Part shown: positions 10,581-20,337 of the stretch, piece by piece
Layout of the letters: every line of letters starts with the position of its first letter
Numbering within the stretch: the stretch's first letter is position 1
Source of the DNA: Bacillota bacterium
GTDB taxonomy: Bacteria > Sysuimicrobiota > Sysuimicrobiia > Sysuimicrobiales > Segetimicrobiaceae
Reading direction: 5' to 3'
NCBI GenBank assembly: GCA_021324975.1
Contig: JAJPIA010000017.1
Coordinates: 1-43,114, forward strand
DNA length: 43,114 nt
Translations under genes and position numbers: made by a program
Notes under the pieces: generated by a model
What the model saw: only the letters and a program-made list of their open reading frames with translations
Told to the model about the DNA's origin: nothing
Database searches by the model: none

Positions 10581-10656
10581 GCGCCCGTAGCTCAGAGGAT
10601 AGAGCGGCTGCCTTCGAAGCAGCGGGTCGGGGGTTCGAATCCCTCCGGGCGCGCCA
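10581..10656 (+). tRNA. tRNA-Arg(UCG)
   Basis: A complete 76-base cloverleaf can be drawn. The acceptor GCGCCCG pairs with CGGGCGC, the D-arm is GCTC...GAGC, the anticodon stem GCTGC/GCAGC holds the loop CTTCGAA with anticodon TCG, and the T-arm contains GTTCGAAT with one G-U pair. CCA is encoded. The anticodon reads CGA arginine codons. Gene fragments including an integrase-like piece start about 150 bases downstream, as expected if this tRNA was an integration site. Confidence 0.97.
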
Positions 10657-11042: not shown

Positions 11043-11488
11043 CCGCGGGCCGGGGAGGATCCGTGTCAACCCGTTCGGGCCCGCGCGGTGCGGGACCACA
11101 GAACGGGGATTGGGGCGCGCGCCGAGAATTCGGCGGCACGGGACGGGCGACGCCGCTACGCGACCGTGCCGCGCACCTGCTTCCGCGTGCGCCGCCCGTG
11201 CTGTGTGCCCCGCTTTTGGCGGCCGGGCGTGCAATCGACGCGACGAACCCTCACGCGGTCCTCGCTCTCTATGCCGCGTCGTATCTCGCGGGCGGCACGG
11301 GCAGCGCGCTCGTCGCCTGGCAGGCGATCCGCGGGGGTCGGGTCGACGTTAATGCGCTGATGCTCCTGGCTGCGGTCGGGGCCGCGTATCTCGGTTCCTG
11401 GACCGATGGGGCGGTGCTGCTCATCCTCTTTTCGACCAGCAATGCGCTCGAATTCTACGTGATGGGGCGTACGCGCCACCGGCTGTGA
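11027..11488 (+). pseudogene. Truncated heavy-metal P-type ATPase (P1B)
   Basis: The frame encodes 153 residues, of which about the last 75 match the first membrane segments of ZntA/CadA-like heavy-metal ATPases: ALYAASYLAGG, then VDVNALMLLAAVGAAYLG, then the DGAVLLILFSTSNALEFY block and an RTR motif. A full pump needs about 600-700 residues including the CPC/DKTG motifs; here a stop follows the RTRHRL end. The first 50 residues look like read-through of non-coding sequence. No product with pump activity is possible. It belongs to the chain of gene fragments downstream of tRNA-Arg. Confidence 0.75.
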
Positions 11489-11527
11489 AAGCCGGATAGC
11501 ATGGCGTGCTGCTGGCGCGTGGACGTC

Positions 11528-11566
11528 GATGCGAGGGAGGGCATCCCGAAGGCCCTCCCTCGCGTC
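11528..11566. terminator. 15-pair inverted repeat, probable transcription terminator or stabiliser
   Basis: A 12-pair perfect stem (11531-11542 with 11552-11563) extends to 15 pairs with one G-T, around a 9-base loop. It lies directly after the truncated P-type ATPase. No T-run follows on either strand, so termination would be atypical. Confidence 0.45.
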
Positions 11567-11645
11567 AGTGCGCGGACGGGCCGACGCGGACCCCGGACGA
11601 CCAGATCAGCCCGTTGCCCCATCGCCAAATCAGGCCGTCCACCGA
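11565..11645 (-). pseudogene. Short remnant with tryptophan-rich GLIW repeats
   Basis: On the minus strand the segment reads DGLIWRWGNGLIWSSGVRVG and ends at a stop three bases before the hairpin. Tandem GLIW/GIIW units occur at the C-termini of some subtilisin-family (S8) proteases of Chloroflexi-type bacteria as I remember them, so this may be the tail of such a gene. No upstream protease sequence is present. Very tentative. Confidence 0.22.
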
Positions 11646-11721
11646 TAGTCCGCGAGCGTGCCAGCGTATAGCGTGAGAGGGTACGATATCGAGCGAAGCG
11701 CGCCCAAGGGAGGTTGCATCA

Positions 11722-12321
11722 ATGCGTAGGCAGAGCGAGCACACCGTGCAAGTCGATGAGCCGCCGATCGCGAGGTTCTTGTTCGCGGACACCCGCATGG
11801 CATGGCTGTGGCTGATCGTGCGTCTCTACGCCGGGTACATGTGGCTCACCGAGGGGTGGGACAAGCTTCACAGTGCCGTGTGGACGGGGCCCAGCGCCGG
11901 CGTGGCGCTTACGGGGTTCGTTACCGGAGCGCTGAAAAAGACGGGCGGCGTGCACCCCGACGTCTCAGGATGGTATGCGAGCTTCCTCCACGCGGTCGTG
12001 CTGCCGCACGCAGCGGCGTGGAGCTACGCCGTCGCTGCGGGCGAACTCCTCGTCGGCCTGGGGTTGATCGTAGGTCTGTTCACGGGGATTGCGGCGTTCT
12101 TCGGCGGGCTCATGAACGCGAGCTATCTGCTCGCCGGTACGGTAAGCGTCAACCCCATATTCTTCATCCTCGCGACGTGGCTCGTCCTGGCGTGGCGCAT
12201 CGCCGGCTACTATGGCGTGGACCGGTGGGTTCTTCCCGCGGTCGGGGTGCCGGGACGCGCCGGCAGGTTGTTCGAGCGGCATGCGGCGATCGCCACGACC
12301 GTGCAGGCTCCCTCGCAGTGA
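11722..12321 (+). CDS. DoxX-family membrane protein
   Basis: This 199-residue protein has four predicted helices in the DoxX/DoxD arrangement. The first, after a polar N-terminus of about 25 residues, reads MAWLWLIVRLYAGYMWLTEG, the usual DoxX opening. The second and third (near 100-145) contain GELLVGLGLIVGLFTGIAAF, and the last holds an NPIFFILATWLVLAWRIAGY stretch. DoxX-family proteins include the small subunit of archaeal thiosulfate:quinone oxidoreductase and mycobacterial DoxX linked to redox stress; the role here is not fixed by sequence. GGGAGG nine bases before the ATG supports the start. No partner subunit is adjacent. Confidence 0.88.
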   Translation: MRRQSEHTVQVDEPPIARFLFADTRMAWLWLIVRLYAGYMWLTEGWDKLHSAVWTGPSAGVALTGFVTGALKKTGGVHPDVSGWYASFLHAVVLPHAAAWSYAVAAGELLVGLGLIVGLFTGIAAFFGGLMNASYLLAGTVSVNPIFFILATWLVLAWRIAGYYGVDRWVLPAVGVPGRAGRLFERHAAIATTVQAPSQ

Positions 12322-12777
12322 TTCACCCGTCCACGTCTCACGGGGCCCGGCTGAAGCAGCCGCCGAACCCGCCGCGCCGTCGTTCACCGCTGCGTGCGGG
12401 CGGTCGACCCCGGTGCTCCATGATCGCCAAGGGATGGGGGAGAAACGGATGAAATCTCAAACACCATGTGAGCGTCGGACGTACGTCCAGCCGAACGCGA
12501 CGGCACAATCGCGGTGACATGCATGGAGCGGCGGATTCGTCCCGGCGCGGCGCTTGCCGCCGGGGCGGCGCTCGGCAATCCACACGAGGAGCATCAGCGT
12601 GTCACGTCGCCGTGGTCGCCGCGGCGTGCTGCCGTCGGGACAATAGGCGCGCCCAACCGACCGACGAGCCGTCACCGCGCCGCGATGGTCGCCACGTTGT
12701 GCCATCTTCAGCGCACCGGTTCGCTAAGGCCATCGGGAACCCGGGGGGGCATCCTAGCGCACGCGGCCCGCCGACGC
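12322..12777. other. 456-base segment without a recognised gene
   Basis: Short open frames exist on both strands, but none has a family-like pattern combined with a ribosome binding site. One minus-strand frame near 12470-12600 reads ERRPGGKRRAGTNPPLHA, which I cannot place. The segment separates the converging DoxX and GNAT/ligase genes and may contain decayed sequence. Confidence 0.4.
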
Positions 12778-15495
12778 TCAGGCGCGGCGCTTCAGGTGGG
12801 ACGGCGGCTCGACCGCCGCGACGCGGATGCGGGCATCCACGATCGTAGCCCCGCGCGGAGCGGCAATGATCGGGTTGCAGTCGAGCTCGATGATCTGGGG
12901 GAGGTCGTCGGCTAGCGCGCCGACGCGGACTAACGTGTCGACGAGCGCCGCGAGATCGGCAGCGGGCCGGCCGCGGTAGCCGGTCAGCAGCGGGAACGTC
13001 TTGAGGCTGCGGATCATCTCCTCGGCGTCTTCTCGGGAGAGCGGCGTGAGTCTCACGGCGACGTCGTGGGTCAGCTCCACCGCGGTGCCGCCCGCACCGC
13101 ATGCGACGAGCGCCCCGAAGTGGGGATCCTGGACGACGCCCAAAATCATCTCGGGGCCGGGTTCGACCATCGCCTGCACGAGGTAGCCTGCAGGCGCGTG
13201 CCCAGAGGCGGCCAGGCGATCCCGCATCTCGCCCGCGGCGTCCCGGACGGCCTGAGCCCCTCTGAGGTGGAGCCGCACCCCTCCGACATCCGTCTTGTGG
13301 AGGACATCCGCGCTCACCGCCTTGAGCGCCACTTCTCCGCCGAGCTCATCGGCGGCTCGGCCCGCATCCTCGGGGGTCGACACGACCCGCTGCGGCGCCA
13401 GCGGGAGGCCGTAGCAGCCGAGAATGTCGCCCGTTTCCTCTGGGCCGAGCCACCCGCCGCCCCGGCGCAGCGCGTCGGCCACCACCGCGGCCGCCCGCGC
13501 GCGGCGGATGTCCGGTAGCGGTGTGATGCGCTCGGGCGGCCGCGCCCGCCACGCCCCGTAGCGCGCGGCCTGCGCGAGGGCGATGGCCGCCGACTCTGGA
13601 AAGGAGAACGACGGGATGCGCAGCGTGGGCGTACTGAGCTCCTCCGGCACCCCGTGCGCCGACATGAAGACCGTCAATATCGGCTTTGCCCCCGCGAGCC
13701 GCTGCGCCGCGGCGATGATCGCGCGGGCCACGTCTTCAGCCTGGGTGACGAGCGGGGGGACCCAGATCGCGACGACGGCGTCGACGTCCGGGTCGTCGGC
13801 GACGGCCTCGATGGTCTTCCGGTACGCATCGGCTGGCGCGGATGCGATCATATCCACCGGATTGCGGACGCTGGCCTCGGGCGGCAGGAACGCCCGGAGG
13901 CGCTCCTGCGCCGCGGGCGACAACTCCGGCACGACGAGCCCTTGCGCCTCGCAGGCATCGGCACACAAGATGCCGGGGCCGCCTCCGTTCGTCACGATCG
14001 CGACACCGCGTCCCCGGGGCACCGGCTGGTTCGCCAGGAGTGCGGCGACGTCGAAGAGTTCTTCGAGCGTATCCGTCCGGATCACGCCCGCCTGGCGGAA
14101 GAGCGCGTCCACGGTCACGTCGGAGGCCGCCACGAGCGCGCCGGTATGCGAGGACGTTGCGCGCACGCCCGCGAGGGATCGCCCGCTTTTGACCGCGACG
14201 ATCGGTTTCGTCCGGGCAACGCGGCGGGCGATCTGCGAAAATCGCCGCGGGTTGCCGAACGACTCCAGGTAGAACAGGATCACGTCGGTATTGGGATCGG
14301 ACTCCCAGTAATTCAGCAGGTCATTGCCCGAGATGTCGGCCTTATTGCCGATTGAGACGAACGTCGAGAGTCCGAGCCGAATCCGGTTTGCGTATTCGAT
14401 AATCGCGAGTCCCAGGCCGCCGCTCTGGGAGGAGAACGCTACCCGGCCCGCAGGCGGCGTGCGGGGCACAAAGGTCGCGTTCAGCCGGACGCTGGGATCG
14501 GTGTTGATGATCCCCATGCAGTTGGGGCCGATGAGGCGCATGCCGGTCTCCCGGCAGACGCGCAGCAGCTCGGTCTGGCGCGCGCGGCCATCGTCGCCCG
14601 TCTCGCCAAACCCAGCCGAGATGACGACGAGCGCGCGAACCCCTTTCCGGCCGCAGGCCTCGGCCACGCCCGCGACCTCCGAGGCCGGGACCGCGATAAC
14701 CGCCAGATCCACCGGATCCGGGACGTCCTCGATCGTGTGATAGGCCCGTTGGCCTTGGACATCGTCCGCGAGGGCGTTCACGGGATAGGCGGGAACCCGG
14801 AGCCCATACGCTCGGATGTTATGGAAGATCTCCCCGCCGATCGTCCCCAGCCGGCGCGACGCGCCGATCACCGCCACGCCGCGCGGAGCCAAGAAGGCTC
14901 GCAGCGCCTGCTCCGCCGCGATTTGATCGCGGCGGTAGAAACGGTCCAAGGCGTCCTGCGTGAGCCCAGTGGGAAACGTGACCGAGAGCTCTGATCCCGT
15001 GAAGCGGACGTTGATCGGGAAGCCGGCCTCTCGGAAGACCGACAGCATCTGATCGTTGTGGGGCAGGACGAGGGCTTCGAAGACGCCGATTCCATGCGCA
15101 GCGGCGATCTCGGAGAGGTGACCCAGAAGGATCGTTCCGAGGCCGCGCCCCTGGTACCCGTCGGCAATCGCGAACGACGCTTCCGCAGCATCGTGCGTTC
15201 CCGCGTTGTACGCCGCGTGGCCGACGATACGCGCATCCGAACCGGCGACGGCCACCAGGCCGAAGTTGCGGTCGTAATCCACCTCGACTGCGCGGCGACT
15301 ATACGCCGCGATCGCATCGTCTGACGCGGTGCCGAAGAAGCGAAGGACCCGCGACTCCGGCGAGAGCGCAAGGTAGAACGCCGTGAGGCGGGGTTCGTCG
15401 TCGGGACTGATCGGGCGAATCCGGATTGCAGTGCCGTCGCGGAGCACGGCATCGGTTTCGCGTTCGGCAGGATAGGCAGCGCGCGGTCGGCTCAT
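12778..15495 (-). CDS. GNAT acetyltransferase fused to ADP-forming acyl-CoA ligase (Pat-like)
   Basis: This 905-residue protein combines an N-terminal GNAT domain (about 20-170; acetyl-CoA loop QGRGLGT at 115-121), a CoA-binding domain (about 200-295, AVIGASRR), a succinyl-CoA-ligase-like domain (about 300-500, GPNCMGIIN) and a C-terminal ATP-grasp domain (about 690-905, ALKAVSADVLHKTDVGGV). This is the architecture of Pat-type protein lysine acetyltransferases, with GNAT first as in actinobacterial relatives. The phosphohistidine position of ADP-forming ligases is kept (His450 in SSHTGA), so the ligase half may be active. The ATG at 15495 begins 31 bases after the response-regulator stop; a TTG at 15537 would give 14 more residues. 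Co-transcription with the regulator is likely. Confidence 0.92.
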   Translation of the reverse strand: MSRPRAAYPAERETDAVLRDGTAIRIRPISPDDEPRLTAFYLALSPESRVLRFFGTASDDAIAAYSRRAVEVDYDRNFGLVAVAGSDARIVGHAAYNAGTHDAAEASFAIADGYQGRGLGTILLGHLSEIAAAHGIGVFEALVLPHNDQMLSVFREAGFPINVRFTGSELSVTFPTGLTQDALDRFYRRDQIAAEQALRAFLAPRGVAVIGASRRLGTIGGEIFHNIRAYGLRVPAYPVNALADDVQGQRAYHTIEDVPDPVDLAVIAVPASEVAGVAEACGRKGVRALVVISAGFGETGDDGRARQTELLRVCRETGMRLIGPNCMGIINTDPSVRLNATFVPRTPPAGRVAFSSQSGGLGLAIIEYANRIRLGLSTFVSIGNKADISGNDLLNYWESDPNTDVILFYLESFGNPRRFSQIARRVARTKPIVAVKSGRSLAGVRATSSHTGALVAASDVTVDALFRQAGVIRTDTLEELFDVAALLANQPVPRGRGVAIVTNGGGPGILCADACEAQGLVVPELSPAAQERLRAFLPPEASVRNPVDMIASAPADAYRKTIEAVADDPDVDAVVAIWVPPLVTQAEDVARAIIAAAQRLAGAKPILTVFMSAHGVPEELSTPTLRIPSFSFPESAAIALAQAARYGAWRARPPERITPLPDIRRARAAAVVADALRRGGGWLGPEETGDILGCYGLPLAPQRVVSTPEDAGRAADELGGEVALKAVSADVLHKTDVGGVRLHLRGAQAVRDAAGEMRDRLAASGHAPAGYLVQAMVEPGPEMILGVVQDPHFGALVACGAGGTAVELTHDVAVRLTPLSREDAEEMIRSLKTFPLLTGYRGRPAADLAALVDTLVRVGALADDLPQIIELDCNPIIAAPRGATIVDARIRVAAVEPPSHLKRRA

Positions 15496-15526
15496 GATCG
15501 GCTCGGATGACGGTGCGCCACGCGTG

Positions 15527-16195
15527 CTACGCTTCAATCAGGCCCTTGCGGATCGCATACCGCACAAGCTGTGTGCGGTCGTGCAGCCCGAGCTTTTCCA
15601 TGATATGGGCGCGGTGGGTCTGGACGGTCTTGACGCTGATGAACAGGCGCTCCGCGATGTCCTGGTTGGACGCCCCTTCGGCGACGAGCGTCAGAATCTG
15701 TTTTTCGCGCTCGGTCAGCCCGTCGTACGCTTCCCGGCCTTCGCCGTCCTCCAGGCGCTTGAGGTAGTCGGCCACGACCGCCTTGGCGACCGCGGGGTAG
15801 AGAAACGCTTCTCCCCGACGAGCTGCCCGGATCGCCTGCACGAGATCCGTCGCGGCGGCGCGCTTGAGCACGTAGCCGGACGCGCCGGCCTTGAGGAGCT
15901 GAAACACATATATATCGTCCGCGTGCATCGTCAGCGCGAGGGCGTGGGTGTTCGGCAGCGCGTCCTTGATTTGACGGGTGGCCTCGACGCCGTTAAGGCG
16001 GGGCATGCTGATGTCAATGACCGCCACGTCGGGCTTGAGCCGCCGCGCCAGCTCGACCGCCTCCACACCGTCCTCGGCCTCACCCACGACCTCAATGTCC
16101 GGCTCAGCGGACAGGATCAACCTCACGCCCTCGCGGACAATCGCGTGATCGTCCGCGAGCAGGACACGAATTTTGGCATTGTTAGACCCCGTCAT
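15527..16195 (-). CDS. NarL/FixJ-family response regulator (REC + LuxR HTH)
   Basis: This is a DNA-binding response regulator of about 222 residues. The receiver domain begins IRVLLADDHAIVREG, with the acidic pair at residues 15-16, the phospho-acceptor Asp61 in VIDISMPRLNG, and the conserved Lys in GYVLKRAA. The C-terminal LuxR-type helix-turn-helix runs from GLTEREKQILTLVAEG through SVKTVQTHRAHIMEKLGL. The frame extends 34 codons further up, but ATG 16195 gives the normal N-terminus; no convincing ribosome binding site distinguishes the choices. The GNAT/ligase gene follows at 31 bases. The likely partner is the GAF histidine kinase at 17445-18641, of the matching HisKA_3 class and transcribed in the opposite direction. 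Confidence 0.92.
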   Translation of the reverse strand: MTGSNNAKIRVLLADDHAIVREGVRLILSAEPDIEVVGEAEDGVEAVELARRLKPDVAVIDISMPRLNGVEATRQIKDALPNTHALALTMHADDIYVFQLLKAGASGYVLKRAAATDLVQAIRAARRGEAFLYPAVAKAVVADYLKRLEDGEGREAYDGLTEREKQILTLVAEGASNQDIAERLFISVKTVQTHRAHIMEKLGLHDRTQLVRYAIRKGLIEA

Positions 16196-16452
16196 AGTCG
16201 TGGCGGGACGTTTCGGTTCGGGTGCGGTCATGGCCTGCTCGTGCGGGCGCTTGGACGTGTGGTGCTGTGCACACATAGTATTGAGGATACGTCGCACGTG
16301 AGCGTCCCGCGATCAGGTCAAGACCTGATAGCGGCGGTCTGCGGCCAGCACGCAGAACCGATCCACGAAGCCAAGACATGTGGCGTCACCGGGGTCTAAG
16401 GAGTTCTCCTCCTTATCAGCCCACCAGCGTACCCGTCTCGTTGGACCGCTGG

Positions 16453-16647
16453 TCACCGCCCGGCCTGCGCCCCCCTCGCGGTCTCCTCGCGCTCCTCATT
16501 CAGGGCGGGATTCATGCCGGTGCCGTGGCAAAGCGGACACAAGATGAATCCACCGGTTCGCCCGCTGATGGCCCCGAGCCCTTTGCAGCCGGGGCACTCG
16601 TGCTTGTCATCGACCAGACGTCCTTTCCACTGCCGCGCGTATACCAT
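16453..16647 (-). CDS. Small zinc-binding protein with two CxxCxGxG motifs (64 aa)
   Basis: The 64-residue product contains CPGCKGLG (residues 18-25) and CPLCHGTG (37-44), a pair of CxxCxGxG repeats like half of the DnaJ zinc-finger module. No J-domain is nearby. GGAGAG precedes the ATG at a good distance, and the composition differs from random reverse-strand frames. Such mini-proteins probably bind one zinc ion; function unknown. It lies in a minus-strand run upstream of the response regulator, with a 257-base gap, so co-regulation is possible but not shown. Confidence 0.75.
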   Translation of the reverse strand: MVYARQWKGRLVDDKHECPGCKGLGAISGRTGGFILCPLCHGTGMNPALNEEREETARGAQAGR

Positions 16648-16885
16648 GTCCGCTCTCCGTCACTTCATGCCGACGTTGCCACCCCAAGCTCCCGCTGTTT
16701 TGCCGGGCTGGTCTCTCACCAACGATATCGCGGCACGATCCGTGCCGGTATCGGACGGCGGCCTGATGTGCCGACGCTCGCGGTGCCCTCGCCGGAGAGG
16801 GTGGAGCCGCGGGAGGACGGACGGAAGATGGGTAGGTCCGCCGGTGACTCGCTCTTTCCGAAGCGGGGGCACGCATGAAACACCC

Positions 16886-17188
16886 CTATGACTCACTACC
16901 CTCCCAATTGTTGCGGGCATGACGCAGGAGGGTCTCGCTGATCAATAGGCTAATGCGTGCCGGGATACCATGAGAGACCGCAAGGACGTGCTCCAGTTCC
17001 GCGGCGCTCAGTACGACCCAGCTTCGTTCCCGGAAATCACGGGTTTCGAGGTCTTGCTCAGGCCAGTACGTCACGTGCGTTAAGCGATCGGGATCCCATG
17101 ATCCAGATGAAGGTAATCCTTGGAAACGCAGACGCCCATCTTTCGCCGTGGCGAGCAGGAATGTTTTGGGTTTGTTCGTGTCGCCCAT
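16886..17188 (-). CDS. Hypothetical protein (100 aa)
   Basis: The product begins MGDTNKPKTFLLATAKDGRL, is soluble, and has a central WPEQDLETRDFRERSWVVLS segment and an amphipathic C-terminal helix containing SLLISETLLRHARNNW. GGGAAGG precedes the ATG at proper spacing. I recognise no family. It heads the minus-strand run that continues with the zinc mini-protein and response regulator, and faces the histidine kinase gene across a 256-base divergent region (17189-17444) in which I see no clear promoter. Confidence 0.55.
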   Translation of the reverse strand: MGDTNKPKTFLLATAKDGRLRFQGLPSSGSWDPDRLTHVTYWPEQDLETRDFRERSWVVLSAAELEHVLAVSHGIPARISLLISETLLRHARNNWEGSES

Positions 17189-17444
17189 TAGCCTTCCCGG
17201 TTCTCGTCAGGAGACACCGCGTGCCAGCGTTGCCGCGAGTGTAGGCTGGCTGGGCCATCATTGGTATCGGGTGAAGGCCCGATGTCGCGGTACCGGTGGC
17301 GCCCATGGGCGTCTCCCGGGGTAAAGGCCCGTGACCCGAATCGACACGCCCGGAGGAGCCACGCGCCCCGCCGGCTAACTCTTCGACTAGGTCGTTGCAA
17401 CCGCACGTGCGAGTTTGCCGCGATAGACGAGCTCGGGTGCAGGC

Positions 17445-18641
17445 ATGCCGCTGGAAAATCGAACCGGAGTCCTTCGAGCGGTCTCGCGAGCCTTGAATCA
17501 ATCCTTTACGCTTCGTGAAGCGTTGGACGGCGCACTGCCCAGGATCGTTGAGCTCGCCGCGGCCGACGCCGGATGGATTTTCCTCTACGACGCGATGTCT
17601 GACACGTTCTCGTTCGCCGCCGATTTCAATCTCCCACCGGCACTGGCGGTGTCGGGGAAGCGCCGGATGACCACGGAGTGCCGGTGCCAGCAGATGCTGC
17701 GGGAAGGCCGCCTGACCCAGGCGGTCAACCTGATCGAATGCCTCAGGCTCGAACAGGCGCTGCCGCAGGCTCCAGAGCGTCACCGGCACGCCTCAATTCC
17801 CTTGCGATCGCAGACGGAGGTCCCCGTCGGCATCCTCAACCTGCTCCTGCCTCCTGGACGCGTGCTCCAGCAGCGCGACCTGGACGTGCTCGAGTCGCTT
17901 GGCCATGACGTGTCGGTGGCCATCCAGCGGGCCCGACTGTATGAAGCGGTCCGCGACAAAGAGGCCACCACGCGCGATCTGATGCAGCGCCTCCTGACCG
18001 CGCAGGAGGAGGAGCGTCGGCGCATCGCCCAGGATCTCCATGACCACGCCGGGCAGACGTTGACAGCGCTCATCATCCAACTGGCGCACCTGTCAGGGCA
18101 CGTGCACCAGATGGACAAGCGGGCGATCCCGGCGGAGCTTGAGCGGCTCCGGGCGGTGGCAGAGCGCAGCCTCGACGAGCTGCACAAACTGGTCTATGAT
18201 CTGCGGCCGCTGATCTTGGACGATCACGGGCTTGGGGCGGCGCTGCGCTCGTACGTCGAGACGCACCTCGAACCCACGGGCCTTGCGGTCAGTCTCAAGG
18301 TCATCGGGCCGGACGAGCGGTTACCCAGGGACGTGGAGACCGCGGCGTACCGAATCATCCAGGAGGCCGTGACGAACACCCTTCGGTACGCCGAGGCGAA
18401 ACAGATCGAGATCCGCGTGGATCGCCGCGAAGACTGGTTGATCGTCATGGTGCGTGACGACGGTAGGGGCTTCGTCCCCGAGGACACGGAGCCGAAAAAG
18501 AGCCTCGGGTTGCAGGGCATGCGCGAGCGGGCCCAGCTCGTAGACGGGCACCTACAGGTTCTCTCTGTCCTTGGAGTCGGGACGACGATCCTCGCTCGCC
18601 TGCCGCTCCACGGACGCTCACCGCGCTTCCATGCGGACTGA
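17445..18641 (+). CDS. GAF-domain sensor histidine kinase (NarX/NreB-like, HisKA_3)
   Basis: This is a soluble 398-residue kinase with no membrane segment. A GAF domain spans about residues 5-165, a coiled-coil/dimerisation helix with the phospho-acceptor His199 in AQDLHDHAGQTL spans about 180-260, and a HATPase_c domain follows with the N-box QEAVTNTLRYA, the DDGRGF block near 338 and GLQGMRERA near 355. The GAF domain carries three cysteines, Cys79-x-Cys81 and Cys99, which might bind a metal cluster or respond to thiol redox state (inference). An in-frame TAG just upstream confirms the ATG region; the Shine-Dalgarno is weak. The cognate regulator is probably at 15527-16195. The NirK-like gene begins 218 bases downstream on the same strand. 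Confidence 0.92.
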   Translation: MPLENRTGVLRAVSRALNQSFTLREALDGALPRIVELAAADAGWIFLYDAMSDTFSFAADFNLPPALAVSGKRRMTTECRCQQMLREGRLTQAVNLIECLRLEQALPQAPERHRHASIPLRSQTEVPVGILNLLLPPGRVLQQRDLDVLESLGHDVSVAIQRARLYEAVRDKEATTRDLMQRLLTAQEEERRRIAQDLHDHAGQTLTALIIQLAHLSGHVHQMDKRAIPAELERLRAVAERSLDELHKLVYDLRPLILDDHGLGAALRSYVETHLEPTGLAVSLKVIGPDERLPRDVETAAYRIIQEAVTNTLRYAEAKQIEIRVDRREDWLIVMVRDDGRGFVPEDTEPKKSLGLQGMRERAQLVDGHLQVLSVLGVGTTILARLPLHGRSPRFHAD

Positions 18642-18859
18642 GCGTACCGCCCCGAGCCTCCCAACAAACTCAGGGTCTGTTAGCGACTTGCCCCGCCGGA
18701 CGTGCCGCTGTCAAATTTAGCGTCGAAAATGGTTGCAGATCCCGACCCGATTGTTTGAGATCAAATACACTCTCAACCCGATGGTCCAAAACGACCGCCG
18801 GCCCGTAATTTGGTGAAGAGGCTGCGCGATGTGACGGGAGTCTTGGGGGTGTGATCGGG

Positions 18860-19801
18860 ATGAGCGCACGGCGCCACAACAAGCGATACCTTGTGTACGC
18901 TTTGACGAGTGCGGTCGTGTTGGGGTTGCTCGCTCTTCCAGCTGCGGCTCAGAATGGAAGCCCAGCGCGTGATCCCGTGCTCCCACCGGCCGGCCTTCAA
19001 CACGTGAAACAACTCACGATCATCGCCGAGAATCAGACGATCCAGATCGCCCCGGGTGTCAAGGTTCCGCTGTGGACGTTCAACGGCACGATTCCAGGAC
19101 CGATCATTCACGTCCGTCAGGGCGATGAGGTGCAGGTGACATTCGTCAACAAGACGCCGATCCAACATTCGATGGACTTCCACGCTGCGACGACGCCGTG
19201 GAATGTGTGGTATCAACCAGTGAACCCCGGAAAGTCGCTCAAGTTCTCGTTCGTGGCGAAGTACCCGGGCGCGTTCATGTATCACTGCGGCACGCCGCCG
19301 GCGTTCATGCACATCTCGAGCGGCATGTATGGGATCATTGTCGTAGACCCCGTGACACCCTTGCCGCCCGCCAAGGAGTTTGCGCTCGTCGAGAGCGAGT
19401 TCTACGTCACGGCAAGCGCGAGTGATACGTACCAGCCGGATGCTCAGAAAGTCTTGGACGTGCGCCCCGACTACGTCGTCTTCAACGGCATCGCGAACCA
19501 GTATCAGGATCACCCGCTTATCGTCCGTGCCGGCGATCGCATGCGACTCTACGTCGTCAACGCGGGGCCGACGCTCTTCTCGGCGTTTCACGTGATCGGC
19601 TGGATTTTCGACAGGGTGTATATCGACGGTAACCCGTCGAATATGCTCCAGGGGATTCAGACATATCAGATTCCCCCAGGAGGTGGCGCGACGTTCGAGT
19701 TGACCATCACGCAACCCGGCCTGTACCCGTTCGTCACTCACGCATTCGCGTACACCGGCAAGGGCGCAATCGGGCTCATCAAGGTGCTACCCGCGAAGTA
19801 G
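18860..19801 (+). CDS. Two-domain multicopper oxidase, NirK-like (possible copper nitrite reductase)
   Basis: This exported protein of about 313 residues has a signal peptide (basic start, hydrophobic core to about residue 30, AAA-QNG cleavage) and two cupredoxin domains. It retains the full ligand pattern of copper nitrite reductase: type 1 site His103, Cys143, His151, Met156; type 2 site His108, His142 and probably His294; catalytic Asp106 and His244 with Ile246. The Cys-x7-His-x4-Met loop is one residue shorter than the Cys-x8-His loop of the classical enzyme. ATG 18860 has GGGGG ten bases upstream; a GTG at 18851 is possible. It probably reduces nitrite to NO in the periplasm or acts as another cuproprotein. 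The GAF kinase upstream and YtkA-like protein downstream fit a redox or copper role. Confidence 0.85.
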   Translation: MSARRHNKRYLVYALTSAVVLGLLALPAAAQNGSPARDPVLPPAGLQHVKQLTIIAENQTIQIAPGVKVPLWTFNGTIPGPIIHVRQGDEVQVTFVNKTPIQHSMDFHAATTPWNVWYQPVNPGKSLKFSFVAKYPGAFMYHCGTPPAFMHISSGMYGIIVVDPVTPLPPAKEFALVESEFYVTASASDTYQPDAQKVLDVRPDYVVFNGIANQYQDHPLIVRAGDRMRLYVVNAGPTLFSAFHVIGWIFDRVYIDGNPSNMLQGIQTYQIPPGGGATFELTITQPGLYPFVTHAFAYTGKGAIGLIKVLPAK

Positions 19802-19866
19802 GATGACGACCTGACGTGGGGCACCAGCCGGTTGGACGTGGCCACAGTAGAAGGATGCGATCGCGC

Positions 19867-20337
19867 ATGATCACGTCCATCATCTGCCGGTCAAAATGCA
19901 GAACGTCGCTGGTGGCGGCCGCGGTGATCGCCGTTCTCCTGGGTGCGATCCTGATTGTAGGACGATTCGCAACGGCGAATACAGCACCGTCAGGAACGGC
20001 GCACACAGTCAAAATCAAGGGGATGCCCACCCAATACGCGGTTGATTTGCCGCAGCACCGGCAACTCCACCTCTACCTCGACCCTGATGCCCCGGGTTTT
20101 AATGGGATCCACGTGACATTCTTCGATGCGCATGGCCATGAACTCCCAATCGCCGGTGCGTTCGTCATGACGGTTCATGGACGCGCTGGCACGGCCGTGG
20201 TGCTCACGGCGCTTCAGGAAGGTCCCGGTCACTTTTACACGGACTTCAACTTCGGGCGTGGTCCATGGAGACTTGAGATCAGCGCGACGGATCGGCAGGG
20301 TCATGCGTTATGGGCACGGGTTGATGTTGACTTGTGA
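19867..20337 (+). CDS. Membrane-anchored YtkA/CopC-like protein
   Basis: The 156-residue product has one N-terminal hydrophobic helix (TSLVAAAVIAVLLGAILIVG, about residues 13-32), then a beta-rich extracytoplasmic domain of about 115 residues. The end, containing GPGHFYTDFNFGRGPWRLEI, matches the YtkA-like fold often found beside copper-handling proteins (CopC/CopD, FixH-type). His residues are spread through the domain, but no clear copper motif can be named. An in-frame ATG at 19855 is also possible; AGAAGG abuts it and is 12 bases from 19867. It follows the NirK-like gene by 65 bases on the same strand, so it may help deliver or sense copper for it (inference). Confidence 0.65.
   Translation: MITSIICRSKCRTSLVAAAVIAVLLGAILIVGRFATANTAPSGTAHTVKIKGMPTQYAVDLPQHRQLHLYLDPDAPGFNGIHVTFFDAHGHELPIAGAFVMTVHGRAGTAVVLTALQEGPGHFYTDFNFGRGPWRLEISATDRQGHALWARVDVDL

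Follow-up and report, generated by a model that had tools for sequence, protein, structure and literature searches.

A divergent copper nitrite reductase predicted beside a GAF-domain sensor kinase in a Sysuimicrobiota genome

The locus and the encoded protein

The window, as the whole 43,114-nucleotide stretch analysed here is termed, corresponds to contig C48 in a bin of 4.43 Mb whose contamination stands at 4.75%. On the basis of phmmer, ligand alignment and tree, the open reading frame at 18860-19801 of the forward strand is assigned to a NirK-type copper nitrite reductase with two cupredoxin domains. The product comprises 313 amino acids counted from the ATG, to which an alternative in-frame GTG at 18851 would add three. 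Read from the translation, residues 1-30 (18860-18949, forward strand) form a predicted Sec signal peptide, which ends in LLALPAAA immediately before QNG, and this hydrophobic N-terminus, together with the AAA-Q junction, suggests that the protein is probably exported across the membrane. Upstream, a 398-residue soluble sensor kinase with GAF, HisKA_3 and HATPase_c domains (17445-18641, forward strand; Pfam) was correctly recognised in the original prediction, which had omitted a NarL-type response regulator containing Response_reg and GerE domains (15527-16297, reverse strand), the likely partner of the kinase.

Two smaller features flank the NirK gene. An FNR/NNR-like palindrome, TTGTT-TGAG-ATCAA, one mismatch from TTGAT-N4-ATCAA, lies at 18751-18764 of the forward strand, about 95 bases 5' of the start codon, and is the sole such site in the window, where 0.17 would be expected. 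No such box was found upstream of the NirK paralogue or the orthologues, and it was therefore dropped as a conserved promoter element and is retained as a weak lead only. Downstream, 53 bases after NirK, the forward strand encodes a small protein (19855-20337) whose hydrophobic N-terminus contains a single membrane or signal segment. The presence of a protein here is as originally predicted, although the name given to it, YtkA-like, is without any Pfam or NCBIfam match. Its relatives include the C-terminal portion of a CopC-CopD fusion that adjoins NirK in another genome of the family (G003), and one might guess that it handles copper.

The NirK product matches Geobacillus NirK far beyond chance (phmmer E value of 4e-64 across residues 48-310). 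The type 1 copper ligands (His103, Cys143, His151 and Met156), the type 2 ligands (His108, His142 and His294) and the catalytic Asp106 and His244, along with Ile246, all stand at the positions originally assigned to them and fall in the same alignment columns as their NirK counterparts in four solved structures (3wi9, 1kbv, 2dv6 and 6the), Ile246 being replaced by Val in 3wi9. All ten of these positions are conserved without exception in 8/8 family members, namely the window protein, a second copy in the same bin and six orthologues. The position equivalent to Gln267 of the Geobacillus enzyme GtNIR is likewise Gln, and position 248 is Trp in members of the window clade, where the solved NirK references carry Glu or Thr. 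An AF2 monomer model built from two sequences had a pLDDT of 54 and was set aside as poor; its best Foldseek matches were Geobacillus NirKs at a TM score of only about 0.4.

The loop that joins two of the type 1 ligands, Cys143-GTPPAFM-His151 (19286-19312, forward strand; translation and alignments), has the Cys-x7-His spacing reported in the original prediction, which had considered it shortened. The spacing is as reported but is not unusual, for it occurs in every Clade II or Geobacillus-type NirK compared, including the solved enzymes of Geobacillus (HCGTKPVLQH), AniA (HCAVAPVGMH), Hyphomicrobium (HCATPSVPTH) and 6the (HCATPMVAEH). Throughout the alignment, all NirKs outside Clade I possess seven intervening residues, save a side branch with Ser in place of Asp, which has nine; longer loops are present in both of the Clade I sequences aligned (n = 2), one of x8 and one of x9. 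PMC4770552 assigns the class I enzymes to Clade I and the diverse remainder, including the Firmicutes and class II enzymes, to Clade II, for which it reports deletions in the linker and tower loops. As x7 is the standard outside Clade I, loop length is ruled out as a sign of novelty, and the Cys-x7-His loop is a misleading cue that does not mark an odd enzyme.

The side branch is itself a NirK-like clade in which Ser replaces the catalytic Asp and the loop is Cys-x9-His; it was encountered at three loci (L018, L019 and L020, in G028, G022 and G034, respectively) and on the Thermus TF21 plasmid (L077, 3947-5323), where the gene lies beside nirS and its product has Gln at the position of the Met ligand.

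Placement among copper nitrite reductases

A maximum-likelihood tree of 48 rows, including NirKs of several types and two-domain oxidases bearing an HCH motif, united the window protein, the second copy and the six orthologues in a single clade with support of 100/100. The stem of this clade is long (0.74), and the rows for Geobacillus, Thermus-like, Clade II and Clade I sequences all fall outside it. By sequence, it is a distant, deep branch outside both classical NirK groups. The earlier description of the protein as a divergent nitrite reductase accords with this result, given the full ligand set in all eight members, their position on the NirK side of the tree and Geobacillus NirK as the closest solved relative.

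TIGR02376, the NCBI equivalog model for NirK, has a cut-off of 296.3 bits, below which fall both the window protein (199.6 bits) and a 272-residue stretch of the GtNIR-type Geobacillus enzyme (194.3 bits). Because the proven Geobacillus NirK also scores below the cut-off, the low score of the window protein does not decide for or against its function. Two genomes of the family (L042 and L043, in G007 and G009) also contain a second, different NirK that groups with the Haloferax enzyme; the one copy of it tested passes the cut-off. Surveys of nirK that apply this threshold would miss the window clade, as they would even the proven Geobacillus enzyme, and the number of nitric oxide and N2O producers in this little-studied lineage may be underestimated. 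The novelty is mild, consisting of a distant NirK branch that goes unrecognised as nitrite reductase in standard annotation.

The second locus and the neighbouring regulators

Another contig of the bin, C83, carries reshuffled copies of blocks from the window, which encode DoxX-like and acyl-CoA-synthetase-like proteins as well as the response regulator, kinase and NirK (90%, 84% and 78%, respectively). The corresponding window segment, 11165-20291, contains conserved blocks that are 68-90% identical by blastn to those on C83, which also holds a quinol nitric oxide reductase. This segment has a GC content of 0.657, compared with 0.682 and 0.691 in its flanks, and is preceded by a tRNA-Arg (TCG) gene at 10581-10656. 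Integration of an island at this tRNA was considered and set aside, as a search of the window for a repeat of the tRNA end found none. The tetranucleotide correlation between C83 and the window is 0.964, a value that contigs of the same genus reach similarly, so that composition does not tell C83 from a same-genus contaminant.

The quinol nitric oxide reductase of C83 (779 residues; E value of 1.5e-161 to qNOR structures) is encoded about 9 kb from the 78% NirK copy. Also on this contig are two S/N-oxide reductases of the TorA/BisC family, a TorD-like chaperone, cytochrome b, a Rieske protein and a CRP-type regulator. In a related genome, G005, the gene order is response regulator, qNorB, NirK, FeS-assembly protein, hemerythrin/DUF2249 and cupin, and a CRP-type regulator lies a few kb farther on. 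Across the family, a qNorB domain was detected in three of 12 genomes, all three of which also possess the window-type NirK. Of the seven genomes that carry this NirK, four gave no match in the search, which was confined to qNorB among the NO reductases. The original prediction had stated that the window contains no other denitrification gene; none was seen among the window proteins checked, but the bin as a whole holds both qNorB and a second NirK. Complete denitrification was rejected for the lack of any NosZ match above cut-off in the family genomes and of any NarG match above cut-off in those carrying the window-type NirK, G002 alone having one. In several genomes, a recurring membrane protein of 450-493 residues is encoded close to the kinase or to the window-type NirK (L059 15926-17278, L036 5986-7467, L038 12880-14277, L039 10289-11677 and L072 8663-10066); one member has a weak COX1 match, and no relative was found in the PDB.

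The best NCBIfam matches of the kinase are MctS and UhpB, both below cut-off, and its nearest solved structures in the PDB are DesK, VraS and DevS. Its GAF domain contains a Cys-x-Cys-x17-Cys motif (Cys79, Cys81 and Cys99; 17679-17741, forward strand) that is invariant in nine homologues and is possibly a sensor site for an Fe-S cluster or another metal. In Staphylococcus aureus AirS, a Cys-X7-Cys-X-Cys-X17-Cys motif binds a [2Fe-2S] cluster that reacts with NO (PMC4601167). The Cys-X-Cys-X17-Cys part is common to AirS and the kinase (9/9 homologues), whereas Gly or Glu replaces the first AirS Cys in the kinase homologues, making the kinase similar in kind to AirS but not AirS itself. It also differs from the NreABC system, in which a PAS domain with four Cys is accompanied by a separate GAF nitrate sensor, NreA, since Pfam detects a GAF but no PAS domain in the kinase.

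It is tempting, though we hold it only tentatively, to regard the kinase and the NarL-type regulator as an AirS/NreB-like Fe-S or NO/O2 sensor pair that directly controls nirK, a proposal compatible with the other readings discussed here. Kinase, regulator and NirK lie close together at both loci of the bin, the regulator has an orthologue adjoining qNorB and NirK in G005 (81%) and one about 8 kb away in G006, and the invariant cysteines, with their NO-reactive counterpart in AirS, point the same way. However, kinases with 59-79% conservation occur in two genus mates (G001 and G002) that are devoid of window-type NirK, that of G002 lying near an S/N-oxide reductase, TorD and a cytochrome c; no promoter motif common to the loci was found and the kinase lacks the first AirS Cys. 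The distribution of the kinase therefore implies a regulon that is likely broader, probably anaerobic respiration at large. The kinase may control NirK, as suggested, but the support is weak: kinase and NirK are paired again at the paralogous locus, yet a role as dedicated NirK regulator is weakened by the genus mates that have the kinase without window-type NirK. A bolder and improbable variant is that the clade represents an additional NirK lineage, overlooked by cut-off annotation and coupled to the GAF kinase, whose Cys-x-Cys-x17-Cys site would bind an Fe-S cluster and sense NO made by the enzyme; if true, nitrite reduction and its own regulator would be joined in direct feedback.

Proposed function and comparison with known enzymes

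Homology marks the window protein as a conventional, if divergent, copper nitrite reductase and predicts its catalysis, fold, trimeric state, copper content and electron flow. We consider it very likely that it acts as an exported, Geobacillus-type (Clade II-like) enzyme that converts nitrite to NO. A one-electron donor would reduce the type 1 copper held by His103, Cys143, His151 and Met156, and the electron would then travel via the Cys143-His142 bridge to a type 2 copper at His108, His142 and His294, expected at the subunit interface of the trimer. There, nitrite would be reduced to NO with protons supplied by Asp106 and His244. Clearance of the NO would probably fall to the quinol nitric oxide reductase of the other contig of the bin, the two enzymes together providing a short route from nitrite to N2O.

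An unlikely alternative is that the protein is a NirK by structure with a different main role, for example the oxidation of hydroxylamine to NO or the delivery of an NO signal to the neighbouring kinase. The long stem of the clade and the family-specific Trp248 imply that substrate preference could differ from that of the solved NirKs, and the second NirK of G007 and G009 that the window-type protein may not be the main nitrite reductase in those genomes, while qNorB is missing from some genomes. In addition, the NirK of N. viennensis is reported to generate NO from both nitrite and hydroxylamine (PMC6308003). Against this, the catalytic residues of nitrite reductases are all kept, and qNorB is linked to NirK at two loci. 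The possibility that the protein is instead a two-domain multicopper oxidase (a laccase or metallo-oxidase) is very remote and was rejected on ligands and tree: although the two-cupredoxin fold is common to both, Pfam Cu-oxidase models match the protein and NCBI-annotated plasmid homologues bear the name multicopper oxidase domain-containing protein, the HCH oxidases carry His, YHCH and His where it has Asp106, YHCG (Gly144) and Ile246, so that the ligands of the trinuclear cluster are absent, and the tree separates those oxidases from the NirK side with support of 100/98. The placement among laccase-like oxidases that the original prediction had named as grounds for refutation was thus not borne out.

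The HCH-bearing two-domain oxidases, which adjoin metal transporters on plasmids and in genomes of the same order (Rhodococcus pBD2, Sutcliffiella and others), share the two cupredoxins and the Cys-x7-His loop but differ in their trinuclear ligands. Class I NirKs, represented by S. meliloti and Phaeobacter plasmid examples, have the same ten ligand and catalytic-site residues, yet are only 27-30% identical and are distinguished by Cys-x8-His or Cys-x9-His loops and an RPHLIG motif. A NirK-like protein of Pseudomonas aeruginosa resistance plasmids (pPUV-13 and pBT2436) is 43% identical, with the full NirK ligand set and Cys-x7-His, but occupies a long separate branch and is surrounded by transposases and resistance genes. 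Its gene, on these multidrug-resistance plasmids (L034 8001-8837; L063 5965-6828), is flanked by a transposase gene on one side and ant(4')-IIb on the other and is annotated only as a multicopper oxidase domain-containing protein. The class II enzymes (AniA, 1kbv, and the core domains of the Hyphomicrobium, 2dv6, and Bradyrhizobium, 6the, proteins) share Cys-x7-His, the ten residues and the FHVI motif that surrounds the catalytic His, but are 34-40% identical and form well-supported groups of their own, separate from the window clade. Geobacillus NirK (GtNIR/GkNIR; 3wi9, 3wkq and 3x1e) does not group specifically with the window clade in the tree and has Thr, after the catalytic His motif, where the window family has Trp248. 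This enzyme, of which GtNIR is a well-studied nitrite reductase with an Asp/His proton-relay scheme (PMC12221283), is 43.5% identical to the window protein over 255 aligned columns and has in common with it the Cys-x7-His loop, the copper ligands, the Asp/His pair and the Gln at position 267.
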